Source: a virus. Taken from it: DNA of 22,275 nucleotides. The position numbers were made by a program, and so were the translations under genes. Shown piece by piece: positions 2,792 to 20,809 of this stretch (its first letter is position 1; the number at the start of each line of letters is the position of its first letter). The notes under the pieces are model-generated. The model saw only the letters and a program-made list of their open reading frames with translations. It ran no database searches and had not been told where the DNA came from. Where the stretch lies: positions 1 through 22,275 of the IMG/VR virus record IMGVR_UViG_3300035698_000863; one strand, written 5' to 3'.

Positions 2792-3226
2792 TTATATTAG
2801 CTTAGCGTAAACCTTTGATGTATTGTTGTTTAATTTTTCATATTTAAACTCGATCTTCAATCCGCCAGCTTTTCTGTGTGAAATGCCATCATCATTTATT
2901 ACATCTTCAGGTTTAGTATCAGTATCTTTTCCGTATCTTCCGCCAAACTGTTTAACTTCAAGTGTTACAGTTCCTTTTTTGCCTTCTAAAGTTACATTAC
3001 CGAAACCTAATCCAATTCTTGCTAACTTTTCTTTTAGTTCACTAATTGCAACTTCAGGATTTATGTATTCTCTATCTGCAATAGCTCCTACAAAAGCATT
3101 AACTGCTTCCAATACTTTAGGATTTTCAATATTATGAACGCCGATATTACTATCTTCCACTGAATTGGAATTTACTGTACCAACGCCGTCAACTTTTTCT
3201 TTAATGTGTTGTTTAAATGTTTTCAT
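2792..3226 (-). CDS. late protein with capsid-targeting-like N-terminus
   Basis: A 144-residue protein. I choose ATG 3226, giving MKTFKQHIKEKVDG; the longer in-frame version to 3268 begins with a TTG and a lysine-rich tract that is really the preceding small gene read in another frame. The first ten residues match the T4 internal-protein leader (MKTYQEFIAEA) in spacing, with I-K-E as a candidate cleavage site. A Ser/Asn-rich linker follows (about 15-33), then a helical region (LEAVNAFVGAI, about 39-50) and a predicted beta-rich C-terminus with basic strands (VTLEVKQFGGRYG, LKIEFKYEKL). The preceding 45-aa gene overlaps it by 14 bases. Function unknown; the leader suggests packaging in the head. 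Confidence 0.6.
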   Translation of the reverse strand: MKTFKQHIKEKVDGVGTVNSNSVEDSNIGVHNIENPKVLEAVNAFVGAIADREYINPEVAISELKEKLARIGLGFGNVTLEGKKGTVTLEVKQFGGRYGKDTDTKPEDVINDDGISHRKAGGLKIEFKYEKLNNNTSKVYAKLI

Positions 3227-3350
3227 TTTTTTCCTCTTTATTTTCTTTCTTTGATTCAGGAGTTTCAACAGTTTCTTTATTATCTGCTAAAACATCTTCT
3301 TCAAAATCTTTTAAATTTTCGTCAATAATATGAGATTTAAATCTTTTCAT
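3213..3350 (-). CDS. 45-aa acidic small protein with M-K-x-F leader
   Basis: A short gene from ATG 3350 to TAA 3213-3215. It begins MKRFKSHIIDENLKDF and continues as a Glu/Lys/Asp-rich tail ending KEEKNENI. The ATG shares one base with the stop of the preceding coiled-coil gene (TAATG), and the 3' end overlaps the next start by 14 bases, which is the coupling style seen across this operon. Its leader aligns with those of neighbouring late proteins, and I-D-E at 9-11 is a candidate gp21-type cleavage site. The high charge and lack of hydrophobic core suggest a disordered peptide, comparable in style to T4 head-internal or core peptides. Coding status rests on overlap pattern and leader similarity. 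Confidence 0.5.
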   Translation of the reverse strand: MKRFKSHIIDENLKDFEEDVLADNKETVETPESKKENKEEKNENI

Positions 3351-4809: not shown

Positions 4810-4817
4810 TATTTATA
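4810..4817 (-). promoter_or_regulatory. T4-type late promoter (TATAAATA)
   Basis: Exact TATAAATA on the minus strand in the 117-base gap between the HAD nucleotidase gene and the Ig-like virion gene, 50 bases upstream of the latter's ATG. The match and placement ahead of a virion gene make this a convincing late promoter. Confidence 0.8.
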
Positions 4818-4877: not shown

Positions 4878-5372
4878 TTACTTAAATCCTAATTTTTTTA
4901 ATTCAGTTATTGTATTTGATGTTGTTGTATGTCGTATTCCTATACCACCTCTTTGTTGAAATTGAGATGTATTTTTTAAATAATCATCTATTAATATGGT
5001 AGGTTTTCCTATTAATGTTGCAAAGTTTTGCTTTTGCATCCTTTTAACTAGATTAATTCTGCCTGTACCAATACCTAAGTTTGTTCTTGCCCAATGCGAT
5101 TTACCTGGTATACAATTAGGATCAAAAGTTTCTTCAACATACGCCGATAGTATGTGTGGATTATATTTTTTAATAAAGTTCCAGAGTTGTTGACCACCTG
5201 GAGTCCAAGGAAGAGTATGCCAAAATCTGGGAATAGATTTTATTTGATTCCACTTTTCCTTTTTATCTCCATAAGACCATTTGTCTATAGAAGTACCTAA
5301 TACTTTTTCAACACCTTTGGCGAAGTCACAAAGAACTCCATCCATATCACAATATATTCTAGGTAACTCCAT
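4878..5372 (-). CDS. HAD-family 5'-nucleotidase-like phosphatase
   Basis: A 164-residue HAD-superfamily protein of the 5'(3')-deoxyribonucleotidase type. Motif I is IYCDMDGVLCDF (6-17), with nucleophile Asp9 and acid/base Asp11. Motif II is probably ILSAY with Ser76, motif III a Lys near 91 (GKSHW), and motif IV LIDDY with Asp129-Asp130. The short length and small cap (about 18-65) fit single-domain phage nucleotidases that dephosphorylate nucleoside monophosphates. It is the last gene before the late promoter at 4810 and lies 5 bases after the preceding gene. Together with the adenylate kinase and nucleotidyltransferase upstream it suggests nucleotide turnover as a theme. Substrate cannot be read from sequence; a polynucleotide 3'-phosphatase-type role is possible. 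Confidence 0.8.
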   Translation of the reverse strand: MELPRIYCDMDGVLCDFAKGVEKVLGTSIDKWSYGDKKEKWNQIKSIPRFWHTLPWTPGGQQLWNFIKKYNPHILSAYVEETFDPNCIPGKSHWARTNLGIGTGRINLVKRMQKQNFATLIGKPTILIDDYLKNTSQFQQRGGIGIRHTTTSNTITELKKLGFK

Positions 5373-8338: not shown

Positions 8339-8627
8339 TTTGTTCCTCTATTTCTATTATTAGTTTGCCTATTCCTTTATGCACTCTGTGAAAACTCTCT
8401 TTTTTAACATAGTACGTTTGTCCATCCACCAATTCAATTGGCAACTGATTATCATATTGAATTTTCCATCCACTACCTTGTAACACATAGATAACTCTAT
8501 CTTTTCTATCTCTATGCCAAATCAATTCACCATTATCAACTTGTTCATCAAAAATTCTTTTTATTCTATTTTCAGAAACAAATGAATCTGAAAAAGGATT
8601 ATTACCAATAAAAGTTTCCACCGCCAC
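8328..8627 (-). CDS. cupin-like small protein
   Basis: A 99-residue protein. It probably starts at GTG 8627, with AGGA five bases upstream; no ATG lies in the early part of the frame and TGA precedes it. The core pattern IFDEQVDNGELIWHRDRKDR, then VIYVLQGSGWKIQYDNQLPI and YYVKKESFHRVHKGIGKLII, has the alternating strands and the G-W-K-I-Q-x-x-x-x-L-P turn of a small beta barrel. I recall this as a cupin-like protein common in marine phages. His residues (WHRD, FHRVH) could bind a metal, but a full cupin metal site is not evident. It overlaps the DUF5872-like gene by 26 bases and the next gene by 11, so it is coupled on both sides. Confidence 0.65.
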   Translation of the reverse strand: MAVETFIGNNPFSDSFVSENRIKRIFDEQVDNGELIWHRDRKDRVIYVLQGSGWKIQYDNQLPIELVDGQTYYVKKESFHRVHKGIGKLIIEIEEQNEL

Positions 8628-9141
8628 TCATTCCTAAACTTTTAGCATATCGTGGCAAATTACAAGCCCAATACGCTGCTGTTGTTCTATCTTTCTGCTG
8701 ATCACATTTATGTCTAGCAGCAAAACTTTTTCTCGCCTTTAGATTATTTAATTTAACAGTTAATCCAGTTGTATCTCCCCAAGTGACTTTCTTAATCTTG
8801 TCGCCATCACGGACAAACACATAAAACTTCTTAGGACCGCCTCTTTTTGGTTTATTTAAAACCGGATCCTTTTCATCTTCTTCTTGTATCGGACAGTCTA
8901 AAGGTACTTTTTGACCCTCATGTTCGATAACTTCTCCGATATCAGTTTCTAATAGTTGTTTATCCCAATCAGATAATTCAATTAATAGACCCTCATTATA
9001 CAATTCTCTTGCTTCTCTAAACAACTTATAAAATTCTTCACTGTGAACACGATAAATGTTTTCTGCAAACGGTATATTATTTTCTATATGGTAATGTACC
9101 GATTTTGATAACTTGTCTTTATATTCACTAAATTTTAGCAT
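8602..9141 (-). CDS. DUF5872-like conserved phage protein
   Basis: A 179-residue protein. I choose ATG 9141, giving MLKFSEYKDKLSKS, within the 14-base overlap with the preceding stop; the longer version to 9180 adds a basic stretch with no counterpart I know. The C-terminal half has the DUF5872-like signature: RGGPKKFYVFVRDGDKIKKV, TWGDTTGL, ARKSFAARHKCDQQKD, TTAAYWACNLPRYAKSLGMS, ending GGGNFYW. The Arg-Lys-Ser-Phe-x-x-Arg-His-x-Cys and Tyr-Trp-x-Cys strings are strongly conserved in this family as I recall it, suggesting a nucleic-acid or metal-binding fold. The N-terminal half (HIENNIPFAENIYR, FREARELYNEG) is helical. Biochemical role unknown. Confidence 0.75.
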   Translation of the reverse strand: MLKFSEYKDKLSKSVHYHIENNIPFAENIYRVHSEEFYKLFREARELYNEGLLIELSDWDKQLLETDIGEVIEHEGQKVPLDCPIQEEDEKDPVLNKPKRGGPKKFYVFVRDGDKIKKVTWGDTTGLTVKLNNLKARKSFAARHKCDQQKDRTTAAYWACNLPRYAKSLGMSGGGNFYW

Positions 9142-11494
9142 AATCTTTAAACGATAACATCTTTTTTCTGACTTCATCAATCTTTGATTGATAGTCGTTT
9201 CCGTATCGTTCCCTATATTTATCTATTGTTTCACCTGAAGTTGCCCATTCTTCTATATCTTTTTCAGATATTTCTGGTGGATTGCCTCGTTCTTTTGCTT
9301 CAACTGGTTTATTGTCTGGTTTTTCACCAGGTGTCACTTCTTTTGTATGGTTTGCATAGTCGGCGCCAACTTCATACGATTCTTTTGTCTTCATTATTAA
9401 TTCTTTCTTTAATTGTCCAAAATATTTCTTCTTTTTTTCTTCGATTTTCTTTGGTTCTGTTTTAATTTCTTCTGGTTGAGAAACAGCTGTAAATCCATAA
9501 TCTACATCTAAATTATATTCTCTAATAGCAACCTCTTTATCTGAAACTATAGGAATACAATCCCATATCCAAGCTTTGTGTAAGTTGCCCTCTACGTCTT
9601 CTACTACTATGTAGTTTGTACTTTTTCTAACTACTTTGCCTTCAACACTTTCTTTGATATAGTTTACTTTATCGCCTATGTTAAAGATGATTTCTCTAAT
9701 ATATAAATCTCTTATTTGTTGTTGTTCAAACTGTTCTAAGCTTGCAATTGGGCTTACAGCACTATCATAAGCATATGAAGCTGCTAATCTCATTCCTTTT
9801 CTTACTTGCTTCATAATATCATCTGCATTTACCCCACGAGGTAATCCTAATTTGAAACTTCTTATATCACCTTTGGCAGCTGCATCTCTCATTTTACTTG
9901 CACTCATACCAATAGCTCCTTCAGCGTCTGGATCTCTTTCACCCGCTGATACAACTTCTATCTTATCAAAATTATAATATCCGTGTCTGCTTTTAACATT
10001 GTTATATTTTGTAAGTATTGTTTTAAATTCCACAGTTCTATCTGAACCTGCCACCATTTTAATTTCTGTAAAGCCTTTGTTATACAAATCGGTAGCAATA
10101 TCTAAAACCATATTTGTTTTATTAACCATTATTTTAGAAGCGTAAGATGGAAACATCTTTTTCATAATGTTTAATTTTTGGACTGCTGATAGCGGGTTCT
10201 TTTTAGGGTCTTCACTTCTACTTAAATAAATTCTATAATCATTTGCGGGAACACTCGCAACTTTTTTAATTAACTTCTCGTGTCCTATTGTTGGTGGATT
10301 AAATCTACCAAAAGCAAAAGCAACTGATTTTTTTGTAGCTTCTTGTAATGTTTCTTCGTGTACCATTGTTTGTAGTTTTTTGCCATCGATATCTCTAAAT
10401 GTATCAGCGACAGCGGAAGCGTAATAACCAATATCGTGTCTTAATGGTAATCCTTCTCTCGCTCTTTCGCTTTTCTTTCTATCAATAACATCTTGTAAAA
10501 CTTTAGCAGCATATTCATATCTCTTTTGAGTTGTTGCCATCATTTTAATTTTAGTAACTAAATTTTTAAACCAAGCAGTTGCTTTTATTTTTGCTTTGTC
10601 TAATGTGATTGCTTCTTTCAAACTATCTATTTCAGCGTCTGTTACTTCTCCGTCTTCTAAAATCTTTTTGCATTTTTTATAGAATGTTAGATAGTGATAT
10701 TTTTCTAACATCTTATAGATAACGTTTTTAGGTAATCTGTTTTTTACCCCAAACTTTCTTATTTCATCTGGCAACATATCTGTGTCAAAAGCTGCTCTTC
10801 TTTCAGCGTCAACCACAACGCCTATGTTAACAATATCATTTATACTATCTTCTATTTCTTCTAACTTATCATTAACCCTATCTTGTAAATCTAAAATATC
10901 ATTTGGTTGTAATTCTTTTAATTCGTCATAGTCAATAATATCTCTTTTTAATTCGCCCTTAACTACGTCCAATTCTTGTACTTTTCTTTCAAAATCTTTT
11001 AAGTATATGTTTAAATCAAAAACAAAATTATCTGGTCTTTTAATAAACTTATTGTTTTTTATATCGAATACTGTATCTGCTTTGTTATTCTGATCATCAT
11101 AAGTTTCTTTAGATGTTAAAAAATAAAAATTGATTGGGTGTTTAGTTCCTGGTATTTCTTTACCTTGAATATTATCTGGATTTTTTGCTGACAAATACTT
11201 TTGAGAAAGATTTGTTCGTTCTTCTTCTTGCTTTTCTTTTGGAACATCAAACAATACATTAATATCTAGGTCTGCGTCATTTCTATATCTCTTTGTAAGA
11301 ATAGAACCAATTAATGCTGTTTTGATGATGGGGTAATCTTTTTCAAAATCTTTAAGTTGATCGTTAATTAATTTTAAAATATTATCTTTAATTTTAGGAT
11401 TTTTAGTATCAGCGTCATCAAATACACCTGGGGCATATGTTTGTCTAGGTATATCAATGATACTTTCTTTTAAAAAATTTTTAAACTTTTTCAT
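9128..11494 (-). CDS. double nucleotidyltransferase fusion (Pol-beta-type plus HIGH-type)
   Basis: A 788-residue multidomain enzyme. The leader MKKFKNFLKES resembles a capsid-targeting sequence. Residues about 50-160 look like a Pol-beta/MNT nucleotidyltransferase: ALIGSILTKRYRNDADLDIN with Gly-Ser at 63-64 and acidic metal ligands in DADLD (73-77). Residues 391-560 are a cytidylyltransferase/NMN-adenylyltransferase-like domain: FAFGRFNPPTIGHEKLI (393-409, HIGH-type T-I-G-H) and GMSASKMRDAA (529-539), a counterpart of the I-S-x-T-x-x-R motif. About 605-650 looks like a small SH3-like barrel, and the tail (YEVGADYANHTKEVTPGE onward) matches segments I recall from other marine phages. It overlaps both neighbours (ATGA upstream, 14 bases downstream). 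Likely transfers nucleotides to a small molecule or RNA; substrates unknown. Confidence 0.75.
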   Translation of the reverse strand: MKKFKNFLKESIIDIPRQTYAPGVFDDADTKNPKIKDNILKLINDQLKDFEKDYPIIKTALIGSILTKRYRNDADLDINVLFDVPKEKQEEERTNLSQKYLSAKNPDNIQGKEIPGTKHPINFYFLTSKETYDDQNNKADTVFDIKNNKFIKRPDNFVFDLNIYLKDFERKVQELDVVKGELKRDIIDYDELKELQPNDILDLQDRVNDKLEEIEDSINDIVNIGVVVDAERRAAFDTDMLPDEIRKFGVKNRLPKNVIYKMLEKYHYLTFYKKCKKILEDGEVTDAEIDSLKEAITLDKAKIKATAWFKNLVTKIKMMATTQKRYEYAAKVLQDVIDRKKSERAREGLPLRHDIGYYASAVADTFRDIDGKKLQTMVHEETLQEATKKSVAFAFGRFNPPTIGHEKLIKKVASVPANDYRIYLSRSEDPKKNPLSAVQKLNIMKKMFPSYASKIMVNKTNMVLDIATDLYNKGFTEIKMVAGSDRTVEFKTILTKYNNVKSRHGYYNFDKIEVVSAGERDPDAEGAIGMSASKMRDAAAKGDIRSFKLGLPRGVNADDIMKQVRKGMRLAASYAYDSAVSPIASLEQFEQQQIRDLYIREIIFNIGDKVNYIKESVEGKVVRKSTNYIVVEDVEGNLHKAWIWDCIPIVSDKEVAIREYNLDVDYGFTAVSQPEEIKTEPKKIEEKKKKYFGQLKKELIMKTKESYEVGADYANHTKEVTPGEKPDNKPVEAKERGNPPEISEKDIEEWATSGETIDKYRERYGNDYQSKIDEVRKKMLSFKDYAKI

Positions 11495-12171
11495 CTTTTT
11501 CTAGCCGCTCTTTCTTTTGCCATCCATTTTTTTGCAACGTAGCTTTTGATTGGAGTATTAATTAGTCTTCTGACTACTTTAGAAACTTTATTAAGTGTTA
11601 ATGTTACTAATTCCTGATCACTCTTATTATTATCAACTAAAACAAAATTAGAAAGGCCAAACAAATTTTGAAATTTGCCCATATTATTTTGTACCATTTC
11701 CCAACTTTGCTTTGCTATATATTCTGGTACTTGCCTTTCTCTTTTCTTTTGCCTTTCTAATGCAACAGCTAAACTAGTATTTACAAATATCATTGAACAA
11801 TCATATCCTAATAATTTTAACATTGAGAATTGATTATGAATTAAGTTATAATCTCTACTTGTTGCGTCAATAACTAATCCTAATCTTCCTTTAATATAAC
11901 TGTCTAATTGAGAGTTTGTAGTTACCTTTGATTTTTTTCTTATCAAATCTCTAAAATAAGTTTCTTCTTCTGGCATACTTAATGACAAATTGGCCTGTTT
12001 TAGACCTATTTCAAATGATTTATCAGAATTTACCAGTTTTAAACCACTGCCAGCAAAGGATGATTGTGTAATAAATGATTTGCCTGCACCCGGACCACCA
12101 GCTAAAAAGAACGCTTTAAAAATGCCTGGATCGTAGAGGCCTTCGTTAATTATTTGTACAAAATTTTTCAT
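11491..12171 (-). CDS. P-loop kinase (zeta-toxin/AAA-like)
   Basis: A 226-residue P-loop NTPase. Leader MKNFVQIINEG shows the shared late-protein motif, with I-N-E-G as a candidate cleavage site. Walker A is LAGGPGAGKSFIT (23-35). A Walker-B-like strand with Asp (GLVIDATSRDY, about 98-108) and a later strand (DCSMIFVNTS) fit small kinases that phosphorylate a substrate hydroxyl, such as polynucleotide kinase or zeta-toxin relatives. ERQKKRERQVPEYI (about 139-152) holds basic residues suited to a LID. The C-terminus is basic (KKWMAKERAARKR). It overlaps both neighbours as ATGA. The substrate cannot be assigned; a nucleoside or nucleic-acid 5'-kinase would suit the neighbourhood. Confidence 0.75.
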   Translation of the reverse strand: MKNFVQIINEGLYDPGIFKAFFLAGGPGAGKSFITQSSFAGSGLKLVNSDKSFEIGLKQANLSLSMPEEETYFRDLIRKKSKVTTNSQLDSYIKGRLGLVIDATSRDYNLIHNQFSMLKLLGYDCSMIFVNTSLAVALERQKKRERQVPEYIAKQSWEMVQNNMGKFQNLFGLSNFVLVDNNKSDQELVTLTLNKVSKVVRRLINTPIKSYVAKKWMAKERAARKR

Positions 12172-12743
12172 TTTACTTTATCTATAATTGTTTGAGCTAT
12201 CTTTTCGGGTGTACTACCTTCAGCTTTTATATTTATTATATTACTTTTAAAATAATCTAACAATGGTGCTGTTTGTTGGTGATACACTTCTAATCTCTTT
12301 TTAATAATTTCTGGTTTATCATCAGCTCTACCTCTTGCTGATAGTCTTTTAATAATTTCTTCTTCACTTACTTCAAGGTTAATAACATAATTGTATTCAA
12401 TACTTTCCTTTTTCATTCGTTCTGCTTGTTCAACATTACGAGGGAAACCATCAAACACATAACCGTTTTGTGCGTCTGGCTTTGAAACTCTATCTTTAAC
12501 TGCCTTAATAACAATTTCTAATGGAGCGAATTTACCTTGTGCTAATAAATCTTTTACTTTAACACCATCCGGTGTATCTTGTTTTGCTAAAGCTCTCATC
12601 ATATCACCGGTGTATATATGTGGTATGTTTAACTTTTTAGTAATGATTTCTGAGTAAGTTGATTTACCAGAACCTGGTCCACCAATCATTATGATTTTTG
12701 GTTCATTAACTGCCTCTGAAAAAAATTGACCAAATGTTTTCAT
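12168..12743 (-). CDS. adk: adenylate kinase with extra N-terminal leader
   Basis: A 191-residue adenylate kinase (ATP + AMP to 2 ADP). ATG 12743 forms ATGA with the preceding stop, so I prefer it to the longer frame. Motifs in order: Walker A GGPGSGKST (21-29), YTGDMMR (44-50) in the NMP-binding region, GYVFDGFPRNVEQAERM (94-110), and a short LID starting RLSARGRADDKPEIIKKRL (133-151). The LID lacks the cysteines of long zinc-type kinases. Unlike a standard kinase, the P-loop is preceded by 15 extra residues, MKTFGQFFSEAVNEP, which match the T4 internal-protein leader MKTYQEFIAEA almost position by position. Most likely it works on nucleotides in the infected cell or is delivered with the virion. 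A different NMP substrate is possible. Confidence 0.85.
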   Translation of the reverse strand: MKTFGQFFSEAVNEPKIIMIGGPGSGKSTYSEIITKKLNIPHIYTGDMMRALAKQDTPDGVKVKDLLAQGKFAPLEIVIKAVKDRVSKPDAQNGYVFDGFPRNVEQAERMKKESIEYNYVINLEVSEEEIIKRLSARGRADDKPEIIKKRLEVYHQQTAPLLDYFKSNIINIKAEGSTPEKIAQTIIDKVK

Positions 12744-12952
12744 TCGTTTGACATAGGACACCACGGTAATGGTTCCAACTCCTCTTGTAATCTTTCTGAT
12801 TCTGTTTGTCTTTTTTCTAGTTTTTTTATAATACTATTTTTTAAATCATCACTAAAAGAATCCAAATATCTTTCCATTTTATTTTGTAAACTTTGTTTAT
12901 ACGATTCGTCTAGTTGTTTTTTTTCTATTTCTGCGTGTTCTAAAAAATCCAT
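12740..12952 (-). CDS. 70-aa coiled-coil protein, unknown function
   Basis: A small protein starting at ATG 12952, which shares a base with the stop of the DUF6267-like gene (TAATG). A TTG at 12967 in the same frame is less likely. It reads MDFLEHAEIEKKQLDESYKQ, then a long charged helix (RYLDSFSDDLKNSIIKKLEK) and ends PLPWCPMSNE with a single Cys. The composition suggests a coiled coil or an oligomerising peptide. Its stop forms ATGA with the adenylate kinase gene. I do not recognise the family. Confidence 0.55.
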   Translation of the reverse strand: MDFLEHAEIEKKQLDESYKQSLQNKMERYLDSFSDDLKNSIIKKLEKRQTESERLQEELEPLPWCPMSNE

Positions 12953-14064
12953 TATCCTTTTACCCAATCCTTAGCAATTGTGAAATTGTCCCTACTGAAC
13001 TCCAGTCGATCTACTAATTTGACTGCACCTCTAACTCTATCAACTGCAACATATCCTTCAGGATTTGTTACTTTAAAACCATTAGGTGTTCTAATAAAAT
13101 GTCCGATTGACTGTATTTGATTTAATTTTCTAATTAAAAAACTTTTTGCTCTTTGTAATGATAGATGACTTGCAATAGCAAAATATAATCCTTGTTGGTT
13201 TCTATCAATAAATTTTAAACCATCTTCTTGTATTTTTTGGTATTTCTTTTTTGTATCTTCCCTAGTTACTGCGTCAACTTCTTGTTGTAAAATATTCTGA
13301 TAATATTCTCTAAACATTGTAACCAAAGACTTAACTTTTCCCATATCACTATTATTTCTAACGTAATAATTGAAAAATGTTTTTAATCTAAACCCTACAG
13401 ATAACGGATTAGAAGTTTCAAATTCATTTAATACGGCAGCTGCTTTGCTTAATGAACCTTCAGCTTGTGCTATAATACTATCAAATTGTGCCATCTCACC
13501 TTTATTAAATGTAGATGTTCCTGAAGTATCTTTGTACGTTGCGTCTGTAACAAATATAGATGATAATTTTGGAATACGAGTCAGTGAACCAAAACTAGCT
13601 GATAAGTTAGCCATATTTTTGCCAGAATATGAAGTGTGAAATACGATACCCATTCTTGCTCGTGCAATACGATTTCCGATATCACTATCTTTATCTACAG
13701 CATACGTGATTGTATTAGGAGTAAATGTGTAATATTGTCTATCATCTATGGATTGAGATTTAACATCACCTTTAGTAAATAATAAATCTCCTTGTAAAAT
13801 TCCTGTTATTCCTAGTTTAGACAATTCTCTTAAACATACTACTAGTTTATTTGCTAAAACTCCACTATGATTTTTCAGTATATCACCAGTAGAGTAATTG
13901 ATCTTAGGAGTTTTATTGAATATTGATTTTGTGCCTACAAAGAATTTACCGTTTTCTGGATTAATTCCGCAAAATACAGCAGGCGCACCGTCCCATTTAA
14001 CGGTGATATTAAGTCTACCGCCAATATTGCCTGTAAGCATTTTCTTAACTGATTTTAGAAACAA
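12952..14064 (-). CDS. DUF6267-like protein, main open part (TTG start if not bypassed)
   Basis: A 370-residue open frame from a TTG at 14064. Conserved-looking blocks are NITVKWDGAPAVFCGINPEN (19-38), KFFVGTKSIFN (40-50), GITGILQGDLLF (85-96), YYTFTPNTITYAV (111-123) and RMGIVFHTSYSG (137-148). These match a protein I recall from cyanophages and pelagiphages as DUF6267. The K-W-D-G string has the K-x-D-G form of the lysine motif of covalent nucleotidyltransferases (ligases, capping enzymes), with later blocks in roughly the right order for motifs III to IV; this is speculative. The true N-terminus lies farther upstream (to ATG 14178) but is cut by TGA at 14119-14121. The TTG has no clear ribosome site, so either an N-terminally short protein is made or the stop is bypassed. 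Confidence 0.75.
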   Translation of the reverse strand: MFLKSVKKMLTGNIGGRLNITVKWDGAPAVFCGINPENGKFFVGTKSIFNKTPKINYSTGDILKNHSGVLANKLVVCLRELSKLGITGILQGDLLFTKGDVKSQSIDDRQYYTFTPNTITYAVDKDSDIGNRIARARMGIVFHTSYSGKNMANLSASFGSLTRIPKLSSIFVTDATYKDTSGTSTFNKGEMAQFDSIIAQAEGSLSKAAAVLNEFETSNPLSVGFRLKTFFNYYVRNNSDMGKVKSLVTMFREYYQNILQQEVDAVTREDTKKKYQKIQEDGLKFIDRNQQGLYFAIASHLSLQRAKSFLIRKLNQIQSIGHFIRTPNGFKVTNPEGYVAVDRVRGAVKLVDRLEFSRDNFTIAKDWVKG

Positions 14065-14118
14065 TACGGCGTCTTTGCCGCCTTTAGATCCTCTATCTAT
14101 GATAGCGTCTTCGAGTCT

Positions 14119-14178
14119 TCACAGGTGCTCCAAATGAGTATTTTTTCCTTTGGTAATAAAACCTTTGAAACTAAACAT
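14119..14178 (-). other. separated 5' end of the DUF6267-like gene, ending in TGA
   Basis: From ATG 14178 the frame reads MFSFKGFITKGKNTHLEHL and then TGA, and continues in the same frame as RLEDAIIDRG into the main ORF. Family members, as I recall them, start roughly 'M..F..fi.EGKNTHLEHLEDeI', so the stop falls in the middle of the conserved H-L-E-H-L-E-D string. Relative to that, the sequence has 9 extra bases (for example GTGAAGACT after CACCT). The ATG overlaps the end of the endonuclease gene by 8 bases (ATGTTTAG). This is a decayed or bypassed 5' exon-like segment, or a sequencing/assembly error. Confidence 0.7.
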
Positions 14179-14189
14179 TCGGAGCACCT
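14123..14189. repeat. 9-bp inverted repeat flanking the DUF6267 start
   Basis: AGGTGCTCC at 14123-14131 and its reverse complement GGAGCACCT at 14181-14189 are perfect 9-bp arms 49 bases apart. In the transcript the first arm lies at the end of the endonuclease ORF (encoding its C-terminal Gly-Ala-Pro) and the second ends within the Leu codon just before the TGA. Pairing would enclose the DUF6267 start codon and place a stem directly before the stop. Confidence 0.6.
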
Positions 14190-14428
14190 AACCTTTCTTT
14201 ATATTGAATTGTTAAATTATATTTGTTGATATAGTATATCTCTTTTGAATATACTTCCTCTGGAGTGGAACAATGTTCTAATATTGTTCTTTTGAAATTC
14301 TCTCTTCCGTATTTGCGTATGGCAGACTTTAATAGTCTTCCACTTCCTAGGTAGGAATCACTATTGAATGTGCATACACCTATATACTTTTTACCGTTTT
14401 TTAAATTCTTCGTCTGATAAACAAACAT
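14171..14428 (-). CDS. short GIY-YIG homing endonuclease
   Basis: An 85-residue GIY-YIG nuclease resembling the N-terminal half of T4 Seg-type free-standing homing endonucleases. Motifs: first strand FVYQTKNLKNGKKYIGV (2-18), with V-Y and Y-I-G in place of canonical GIY and YIG; SYLGSGRLLKSAIRKYGREN (25-44), with conserved Gly and Arg; and YSKEIYYIN (60-68), where Glu63 is the likely metal ligand. Length is far below full Seg proteins; the DNA-binding C-terminal domain is missing, so it may be inactive or depend on a partner. The gene lies directly after a late promoter and overlaps the start of the DUF6267-like gene, as expected for a mobile gene lodged at a gene boundary. The ribosome site is weak. 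Confidence 0.85.
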   Translation of the reverse strand: MFVYQTKNLKNGKKYIGVCTFNSDSYLGSGRLLKSAIRKYGRENFKRTILEHCSTPEEVYSKEIYYINKYNLTIQYKERLGAPNV

Positions 14429-14492: not shown

Positions 14493-14500
14493 TATTTATA
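14493..14500 (-). promoter_or_regulatory. T4-type late promoter (TATAAATA)
   Basis: Exact TATAAATA on the minus strand, three bases past the stop of the 360-aa gene and 65 bases ahead of the endonuclease ATG. It marks the change from the replication block to the long late operon (14.4 to 4.9 kb). It may originally have served the DUF6267-like gene before the endonuclease arrived. Confidence 0.8.
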
Positions 14501-19711: not shown

Positions 19712-20809
19712 TTATCTTATAATATCTATATTACTGTCCTTAGTCCAAATTTCAAGTTCATTCCTTAACCGACCATCTTCTTTGATATTATTAAATCTTT
19801 TTGTGGCAAGTTTTCTCCACCATTCTATAAGTTCTATATCATTGTACCTGTCAAAGTTAGGTGCTTTAACAATCTTATCTGTCTTACCGTTTACTATGTC
19901 GATATAGTTTTCAATACCATAGTTCGATACGTAATACCTTTTACGTTCTGTTAACTTCTTAGCATTGGTAATTGTGTCTTTAAACTTTTGTAAATCATTA
20001 CCATCTAAAGTCTTTTTAATTAAACCTTGTATTGCAGTTGTGATTTTTAATTTTCTACTAGAGGCATCCTCTTTAATGAATACACCGATTTTGTCTTCTA
20101 CATAATTAAGTAATTCTTTAAATGGTTTTCCGTGTATCATAGGAATAAAATCACTATCAGTTAACCCTCTATTTTTTAACATAGGTTTCATACCATCATA
20201 TTGACTAGCAGCTTTACTGTTACCAAATAAACTTGTGGTTTCAAACATACACAGGTTCATATCATATTTATTATTTAATTTTTCCCTAACTGAATGTGAA
20301 CAACACAAAGCAGCTAGTAGTTTACCACCAAGATAATTGAAACCAAAAGGTTGTGATGGTACTATTACAAATCCCATAATAGCAGTCTTGTTGAATACTT
20401 TTAAATCAGGTACATTTCCTAATAATACATTTCTTGGTCGCATATTAATAACAGGAGAACCAAATCTCATAAAACCAACATACGTATTTGTATTCTTTTC
20501 CTTTACTGCCAACTTTAAACTTTTACCAGGAATACTTACCATATTACTATGACTTGATATCATATTAATACAAGTGTCCCACGTATGGTTATCTAGTTCA
20601 GCAACTTCTAAATCCATATCTTCTGGCAACATAGTAAAGTCATTAAATAGTTCTGTTTCTAATCCCATACCAGGAAGTGAAGTTGGTATAGATTCAATTT
20701 GAGCCATTTTCTGATCTCTCATATATTCATCTATACGAGTGAATTGATCAAAATAATTTGAAAATACATTAGCACAATATTGTGCTTCTTCTCTACTTAG
20801 GGTCTTCAT
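19712..20809 (-). CDS. conserved phage protein, possibly DUF4338-like
   Basis: A 365-residue protein just after a strong sigma-70 promoter. The core has VGFMRFGSPVINMRPRN (111-127), FNKTAIMGFVIVPSQPFGFN (139-158), YLGGKLLAALCCSHSVRE, CMFETTSLFGNSKAASQYDG, and later WWRKLATKRFNNIKEDG. The order of strands (initial 'GS', then 'ilP..pf.fnyLg.kLL.al', then 'l.ETtsl.G.s....y') resembles DUF4338, the fold of DruA in the Druantia defence system, but the match is distant and by eye only. In phages such a protein could be a nucleic-acid enzyme made early. It is flanked by the adenine methyltransferase and SpeD. Unknown function is the safe call. Confidence 0.65.
   Translation of the reverse strand: MKTLSREEAQYCANVFSNYFDQFTRIDEYMRDQKMAQIESIPTSLPGMGLETELFNDFTMLPEDMDLEVAELDNHTWDTCINMISSHSNMVSIPGKSLKLAVKEKNTNTYVGFMRFGSPVINMRPRNVLLGNVPDLKVFNKTAIMGFVIVPSQPFGFNYLGGKLLAALCCSHSVREKLNNKYDMNLCMFETTSLFGNSKAASQYDGMKPMLKNRGLTDSDFIPMIHGKPFKELLNYVEDKIGVFIKEDASSRKLKITTAIQGLIKKTLDGNDLQKFKDTITNAKKLTERKRYYVSNYGIENYIDIVNGKTDKIVKAPNFDRYNDIELIEWWRKLATKRFNNIKEDGRLRNELEIWTKDSNIDIIR

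Follow-up and report, generated by a model that had tools for sequence, protein, structure and literature searches.

A new domain combination in a family of virion enzymes of T4-like marine phages: Pol-beta/MNT and HIGH nucleotidyltransferase folds in a single, probably injected protein

We describe a gene of a T4-like marine myovirus that encodes, in one chain of 788 residues, two unrelated nucleotidyltransferase folds, a Pol-beta/MNT domain and a HIGH-superfamily domain, behind a ten-residue leader of the T4 capsid-targeting type. We consider this protein a new domain combination in a known family of virion enzymes, and it is probably injected into the host. The gene lies in the window, that is, the whole 22,275-base virus record analysed here, whose minus strand carries UvsX, a DnaB-type helicase and other replication genes. 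The features discussed are collected in Table 1.

Table 1. Features of the window discussed in the text (coordinates are positions in the window).
Feature	Coordinates	Strand	Basis or remark
Pol-beta/HIGH protein gene (788 aa, ATG start): leader, Pol-beta/MNT, helical middle, HIGH adenylyltransferase, SH3-like module, tail	9128..11494	-	
MKKFKNFLKE, T4-type capsid targeting sequence, residues 1-10, predicted prohead-protease site after E10	11465..11494	-	sequence pattern
Pol-beta/MNT nucleotidyltransferase domain, residues 24-155	11030..11425	-	Pfam, AlphaFold, Foldseek, conservation
HIGH-superfamily adenylyltransferase domain, residues 388-572 (GRFNPPTxGH, GSDR, SASKMR)	9779..10333	-	phrog_395, AlphaFold, Foldseek, VIA-align, conservation
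SH3-like beta module, residues 604-650	9545..9685	-	AlphaFold, moderate confidence; kept in relatives
P-loop kinase (AAA_33 / Zeta_toxin / polynucleotide-kinase-like), starts MKNFVQIINE	11491..12171	-	Pfam, profiles; near-constant upstream partner
Adenylate kinase; internal Met gives leader MKTFGQFFSE	12168..12764	-	Pfam; optional neighbour
DUF6267 (T4-GC71), ligase-like motifs KWDGAP / QGD / PEGxV / KLVDR	12952..14178	-	Pfam; TGA at 14121-14119 (codon 20)
GIY-YIG (SegE-like) homing endonuclease gene, internally deleted	14171..14428	-	stop overlaps DUF6267 ATG
TATAAATA, T4-type late promoter motif heading the unit	14493..14500	-	place upstream of DUF6267 in relatives
phrog_7595 downstream gene	8602..9180	-	profile match
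HAD / 5'(3')-deoxyribonucleotidase-like gene, without leader, end of late block	4878..5372	-	profile match, synteny

Results

The initial annotation, made from the sequence, had placed two unrelated transferase folds in this chain, and Pfam, AlphaFold and the fold search all agree with it. The three motifs on which it relied are where it had put them (GS...DADLD at residues 63-77, GRFNPPTIGH at 396-405 and GMSASKMRD at 529-537). The Pfam scores lie just above the cut-offs, both for NTP_transf_2 at residues 46-96 (21.3 bits against a cut-off of 21) and for CTP_transf_like at residues 394-497 (23.4 against 21), and the phrog_395 'cytidyltransferase' profile matches the C-terminal half, HIGH domain and downstream module together, with an E value of 8.5e-68. 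Structure prediction of each domain, which had been proposed as a check, recovered both folds: the AlphaFold model is confident for residues 24-155 and about 388-570 and of low confidence in the helical middle, and Foldseek relates the Pol-beta part to the MNT protein HI0073 (E 7.9e-3, probability 0.98) and the HIGH part to PPAT/NadD (E 7.5e-6). The protein thus carries GS and DxD motifs within a Pol-beta/MNT fold, and T/HxGH and SxSxxR motifs within a HIGH fold. The SH3-like module that had also been claimed is seen in the model and is kept in relatives, although with moderate confidence (pLDDT about 60-73 at about residues 604-650). No PolyA_pol head domain, as found in CCA-adding enzymes, was matched by Pfam at E values up to 0.1, the structure of the middle region being uncertain, and searching PDB sequences with the HIGH, Pol-beta and DUF6267 profiles yielded no convincing relative among solved structures.

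The collection of relatives comprised 398 matching stretches in IMG/VR, some contigs being present more than once, so that the counts taken from it are partly non-independent. Among 126 Pol-beta domains G63, S64, R71, D73, D75, D77, H119 and N122 are invariant, down to about 41% identity, and among 130 HIGH domains, down to about 38% identity, the same is true of G396, R397, P400, P401, T402, G404, H405, G483, D485, R486, E489, R520, D521, D523, S531, K534 and R536. This conservation of the signature residues is far beyond chance. Loss of the catalytic residues in homologues had been named as the observation that would overturn the annotation; the signatures are intact throughout, but the usual third carboxylate of the Pol-beta site appears to be replaced by the invariant Asn122, which in the model lies on the strand where that carboxylate is expected. 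The Pol-beta domain may therefore be atypical, weak or non-catalytic.

Regarding the architecture, 160 closed ORFs of the collected loci have the order Pol-beta, middle, HIGH, SH3, about a dozen more distant ones carry the HIGH domain without Pol-beta, and in no closed ORF of these loci was Pol-beta found without HIGH. The Pol-beta half is common in IMG/VR and had no match, even at E values up to 1, in 50,697 deposited phage records; a scan of whole genomes placed it in four MAG contigs only, which are presumably viral contigs that ended up in bacterial or archaeal bins. Coupling to the neighbouring kinase is supported, as the kinase gene accompanies the Pol-beta/HIGH gene in 76 of 80 loci and is fused in front of it in two contigs, L188 and L239 (913 aa). 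The fusion in L188 (7216-9957) reads LVMGE-SIIDVP; a Glu-Ser persists where the leader used to end and may be a protease site inside the fused chain. The adenylate kinase had likewise been described as coupled, and in the window its gene does overlap the kinase gene, which in turn overlaps the Pol-beta/HIGH gene, but as a neighbour it is optional, being present in 28 of 80 loci. Of the first 80 loci, 60 have DUF6267 upstream, and it was never missing when the available upstream sequence exceeded 4.5 kb. The kinase itself weakly matches a polynucleotide-kinase profile and, also weakly, L-seryl-tRNA kinase, and its relatives match Zeta_toxin.

Other arrangements were seen in this neighbourhood. 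In phage Melnitz the HIGH protein, as judged by eye, carries at its C-terminus a fused domain resembling the phrog_7595 product, and the adenylate kinase and P-loop kinase form one 405-aa protein in L015, L054 and L075 (confirmed by Pfam for L015). In Agrobacterium phage Atu_ph07 (L085, 4254-6590) the kinase domain is part of a 778-aa protein that starts MKWNDLNEA and whose N-terminal part looks ADP-ribosyltransferase-like by eye, without Pfam confirmation. A fusion of DUF6267 and HIGH suggested by the phrog_455 profile was rejected, no real fused ORF being found and the examined isolates having two adjacent genes. Elsewhere in the window, a DruA-like (DUF4338) protein (19712-20809, minus strand; Pfam E 1.5e-7) is encoded beside a speD-like gene and occurs in a few relatives too.

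The late expression proposed for the gene is supported by the placement of the motif TATAAATA. Of 171 relatives, 143 have it no more than 200 bp upstream of DUF6267, where about 0.03 is expected per stretch, and none of 197 has it upstream of the Pol-beta/HIGH gene. In the window the literal count of this motif is not above chance; its fixed position upstream of DUF6267 in the relatives is. As the next downstream late-promoter motif of the window, at 4817, lies beyond the HAD gene, a single late unit from DUF6267 to the HAD gene is likely, in which DUF6267, the optional adenylate kinase, the P-loop kinase and the Pol-beta/HIGH gene would follow each other. The HAD phosphatase had been assigned to the same operon, and its gene does lie within the conserved late block, on the same strand and several genes downstream, but it shows no specific link to the protein. 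Scans of the window for host-type promoters and terminators gave results at or near background, and an Rfam scan of the window was empty.

Delivery with the virion had been made dependent on the leader. For T4 IPIII, the ten N-terminal residues are enough to direct packaging, with positions 4 and 7 acting in targeting and positions 8 and 10 in processing (PMC9026906), and F4, F7, L8 and E10 of our protein agree with these determinants (aromatic at 4, hydrophobic at 7, aliphatic at 8, Glu at 10). IpII and IpIII of T4 start with MKTYQEFIAE; the T4 internal proteins IPI-IPIII share with our protein the ten-residue targeting sequence with its aromatic residue 4, Phe7, aliphatic residue 8 and Glu10 (the latter in IPII and IPIII), but they are small basic proteins rather than a large enzyme, and cleavage of the latter is predicted. 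The pattern is present in 58 of 58 distinct GC190 orthologues and at 0 of 2,897 internal Met residues. Within the family of the Pol-beta/HIGH protein, most leaders are one residue shorter than in T4 (MRFKDYIKE), so the exact T4 spacing occurs in 1 of 64 distinct members and a relaxed pattern in 49 of 64; this relaxed pattern was dropped as non-specific, as it also matches UvsX in 13 of 13 cases. The exact pattern was found in 11 of 15 relatives of the adenylate kinase. A Peptidase_S77 prohead protease is encoded by two related genomes, HTVC008M and S-SM1, the window fragment stopping short of that region, and YLAE-A or FMSE-A is found in gp23 of related genomes where its propeptide region ends. 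With the T4 determinants in place and an orthologue detected in virions (PMC3037559), the leader is probably real. A small protein of the window (2792-3268, minus strand) also begins with an exact T4-type leader, MKTFKQHIKE, and since the pattern is found in 19 of 19 distinct relatives, it is probably another packaged protein.

T4-GC190 has its local counterpart in the HIGH half. In S-SM1, SSM1_189 (T4-GC71, that is, DUF6267) is followed by SSM1_190 (GC190), and four related contigs, all incomplete records, have a single phrog_395 match per genome. The cyanophage proteins (T4-GC190/phrog_395, such as S-SM1 gp190) share with ours the HIGH domain, the SH3-like module, the single copy per genome and the place downstream of DUF6267, and the S-SM1 leader, MKKFSAFLNE, resembles MKKFKNFLKE; unlike ours, S-SM1 GC190 has 387 aa and lacks both the Pol-beta domain and the kinase neighbour. 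Pelagibacter phage HTVC008M (AGE60461-AGE60464) has DUF6267, P-loop kinase and HIGH protein in the same order as the window, although its HIGH protein is without the Pol-beta domain and its leader without Glu. GC190 has been detected in purified S-SM1 virions and belongs to the cyanophage core (Sullivan et al. 2010, PMC3037559), a cytidylyltransferase has been found in S-CREM2 virions, where neighbouring genes also encode virion proteins (PMC10665884), and an NMNAT-like protein in those of S-SCSM1 (PMC9602691), with the caution, raised in such papers, about carry-over contamination (PMC10665884). For the clade of our protein, the virion location would follow by analogy with these orthologues from S-SM1 and other phages.

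At the head of the unit, DUF6267 has the motif order of covalent, ligase-type nucleotidyltransferases, conserved in 49 clusters; it had no match to RNA ligase profiles, no similarity emerged when its profile was compared with six phage RNA ligases, and its model folded poorly and had no fold match. Its reading frame is broken in 16 of 16 GIY-YIG loci that have DUF6267 downstream (the insertion was noted at 14119-14428 of the window, minus strand, and in L106, L345-L351 and L352-L367). The GIY cassette sits at the DUF6267 start codon, and the recoded 5' end has its stop directly behind a codon for Leu or Glu; with few exceptions among the distinct junctions, the native sequence is taken up again at a synonymous codon 3-8 nt downstream. 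Written as take-off codon, stop plus gap and synonymous codon, the junctions are CTG-TGAAGA-CTC, CTG-TGACGA-CTC, CTG-TGAC-CTT, CTT-TGA-CTA, GAA-TAGCT-GAG and GAG-TGACTAAT-GAG; that of L365 reads GAG-TAAT-GAA by eye, the scripted reading having chosen a different stub, and for L359 there is no landing codon from which the native sequence would resume. It is possible that the insertion is a mobile translational-bypass ('stop hop') cassette like that of T4 gene 60, whose 50-nt gap has been proposed to give protection from a homing nuclease encoded next to it (PMC5009743); such a hop across the junction would restore HLEHLED or its equivalent. Alternatively, the cassette brings along duplicated first codons of DUF6267 and simply breaks the gene, in which case the insertion itself would account for a synonymous landing codon. 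The GIY gene of the window is internally reduced to 85 codons, against 209, with the remainder of DUF6267 still open; this is a weak sign that DUF6267 continues to be used.

Discussion

We prefer to read the protein as an adenylyltransferase that is delivered by the virion and acts on a small phosphorylated molecule, and we give this statement, taken as a whole, an even chance of being right. In a T4-like marine phage, it would be the virion enzyme of the GC190 type, to which a Pol-beta/MNT domain has been added at the N-terminus, and it would be synthesized late, along with the P-loop kinase, from the promoter upstream of DUF6267. Its residues 1-10 would bind the prohead core, a gp21-type protease would presumably cut off the leader after Glu10, and the mature protein would be retained in the head and, as we infer, enter the host with the DNA. 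There, if both sites are active, the HIGH domain, whose chemistry is probably adenylyl transfer, would move AMP from ATP, the presumed donor, to an acceptor of the putative class of phosphorylated small molecules, as in PPAT and NMNAT, and the Pol-beta domain may carry out a second nucleotidyl transfer or regulate the HIGH reaction.

One alternative, which we regard as unlikely, is NAD salvage: the HIGH domain would be an NMN adenylyltransferase that maintains the NAD level during the first minutes of infection, an idea put forward in cyanophage papers. NMNAT structures match it nearly as well as PPAT ones (VIA-align gives a tie, with Z 14.0 for PPAT, over 155 residues, and Z 13.2 for an archaeal NMNAT), and the authors of the virion studies relate its orthologues to NMNAT (PMC9602691, PMC10665884). 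However, the domain scores under every NCBIfam NMNAT equivalog cut-off (14.8 bits against 181.2 for TIGR01527), T402 stands in place of the first His of HxGH, and its best PDB sequence matches, none of them significant, are PPATs with TxGH, one of which also shares KKNPL. The PPAT equivalog cut-off was not reached either (16.8 bits against 103.3, TIGR01510), the domain being under all NCBIfam equivalog cut-offs. It shares with CoaD and NadM/NadD the Rossmann-type HIGH nucleotidyltransferase fold and the T/HxGH and SxSxxR motifs, but at 12-19% identity and with a conserved loop of its own, SAGERDPDAEG. To a similar degree we doubt that the kinase, a Pol-beta terminal transferase, the HIGH domain and a ligase-like DUF6267 form a partly virion-delivered set that mends RNA or DNA ends cut by host nucleases. 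The tight synteny of all four modules, the kinase-Pol-beta-HIGH fusion, the ligase-type motif order of DUF6267 and the weak polynucleotide-kinase match are consistent with such a set; against it, DUF6267 has no RNA ligase profile match and its poor model no fold match, the relatives of the kinase match Zeta_toxin and its polynucleotide-kinase role is putative, cyanophages retain DUF6267 and HIGH without kinase or Pol-beta, and no link to tRNA or nucleases was seen.

MntA AMPylates its toxin partner, and the MNT-type domain could act in the same way on a host protein, neutralising a toxin or defence protein at entry, a reading we find quite improbable. The domain shares GS...DxD and the predicted fold with HI0073 and MntA, HI0073 being its fold match, and it gives weak matches to the MntA antitoxin and to a PADLOC candidate family (E 4.1e-6). 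Nevertheless, all these scores are weak, the host target is putative, and the domain differs from HI0073 and MntA in its conserved HPxN at the expected third acidic residue, apparently an Asn, and in being embedded in a large virion-type protein. We see just as little chance that the protein is a degenerate enzyme with a structural role only, in the head or core: its orthologue is located in the virion (PMC3037559) and neighbouring S-CREM2 genes encode virion proteins too (PMC10665884), but a purely structural protein would not need the HIGH signature residues that are invariant in 130 sequences.

A broader scheme, also improbable in our view though slightly less so than these last two, would have P-loop kinase, Pol-beta and HIGH make up a capsid-delivered set for nucleic-acid or cofactor processing, together with a ligase-like DUF6267 made in the cell, for which the HIGH domain would supply or regenerate an adenylylated donor; such a set would operate in many ocean phages, and would do so from the very start of infection.

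The core genes of marine T4-like cyanophages include GC190, which is among the few enzymes repeatedly detected in their virions. Its fusion with a Pol-beta domain, and in some genomes with a kinase as well, with the active-site residues invariant, suggests that these partners act together, and it gives concrete proteins, residues and controls for learning what these phages inject.
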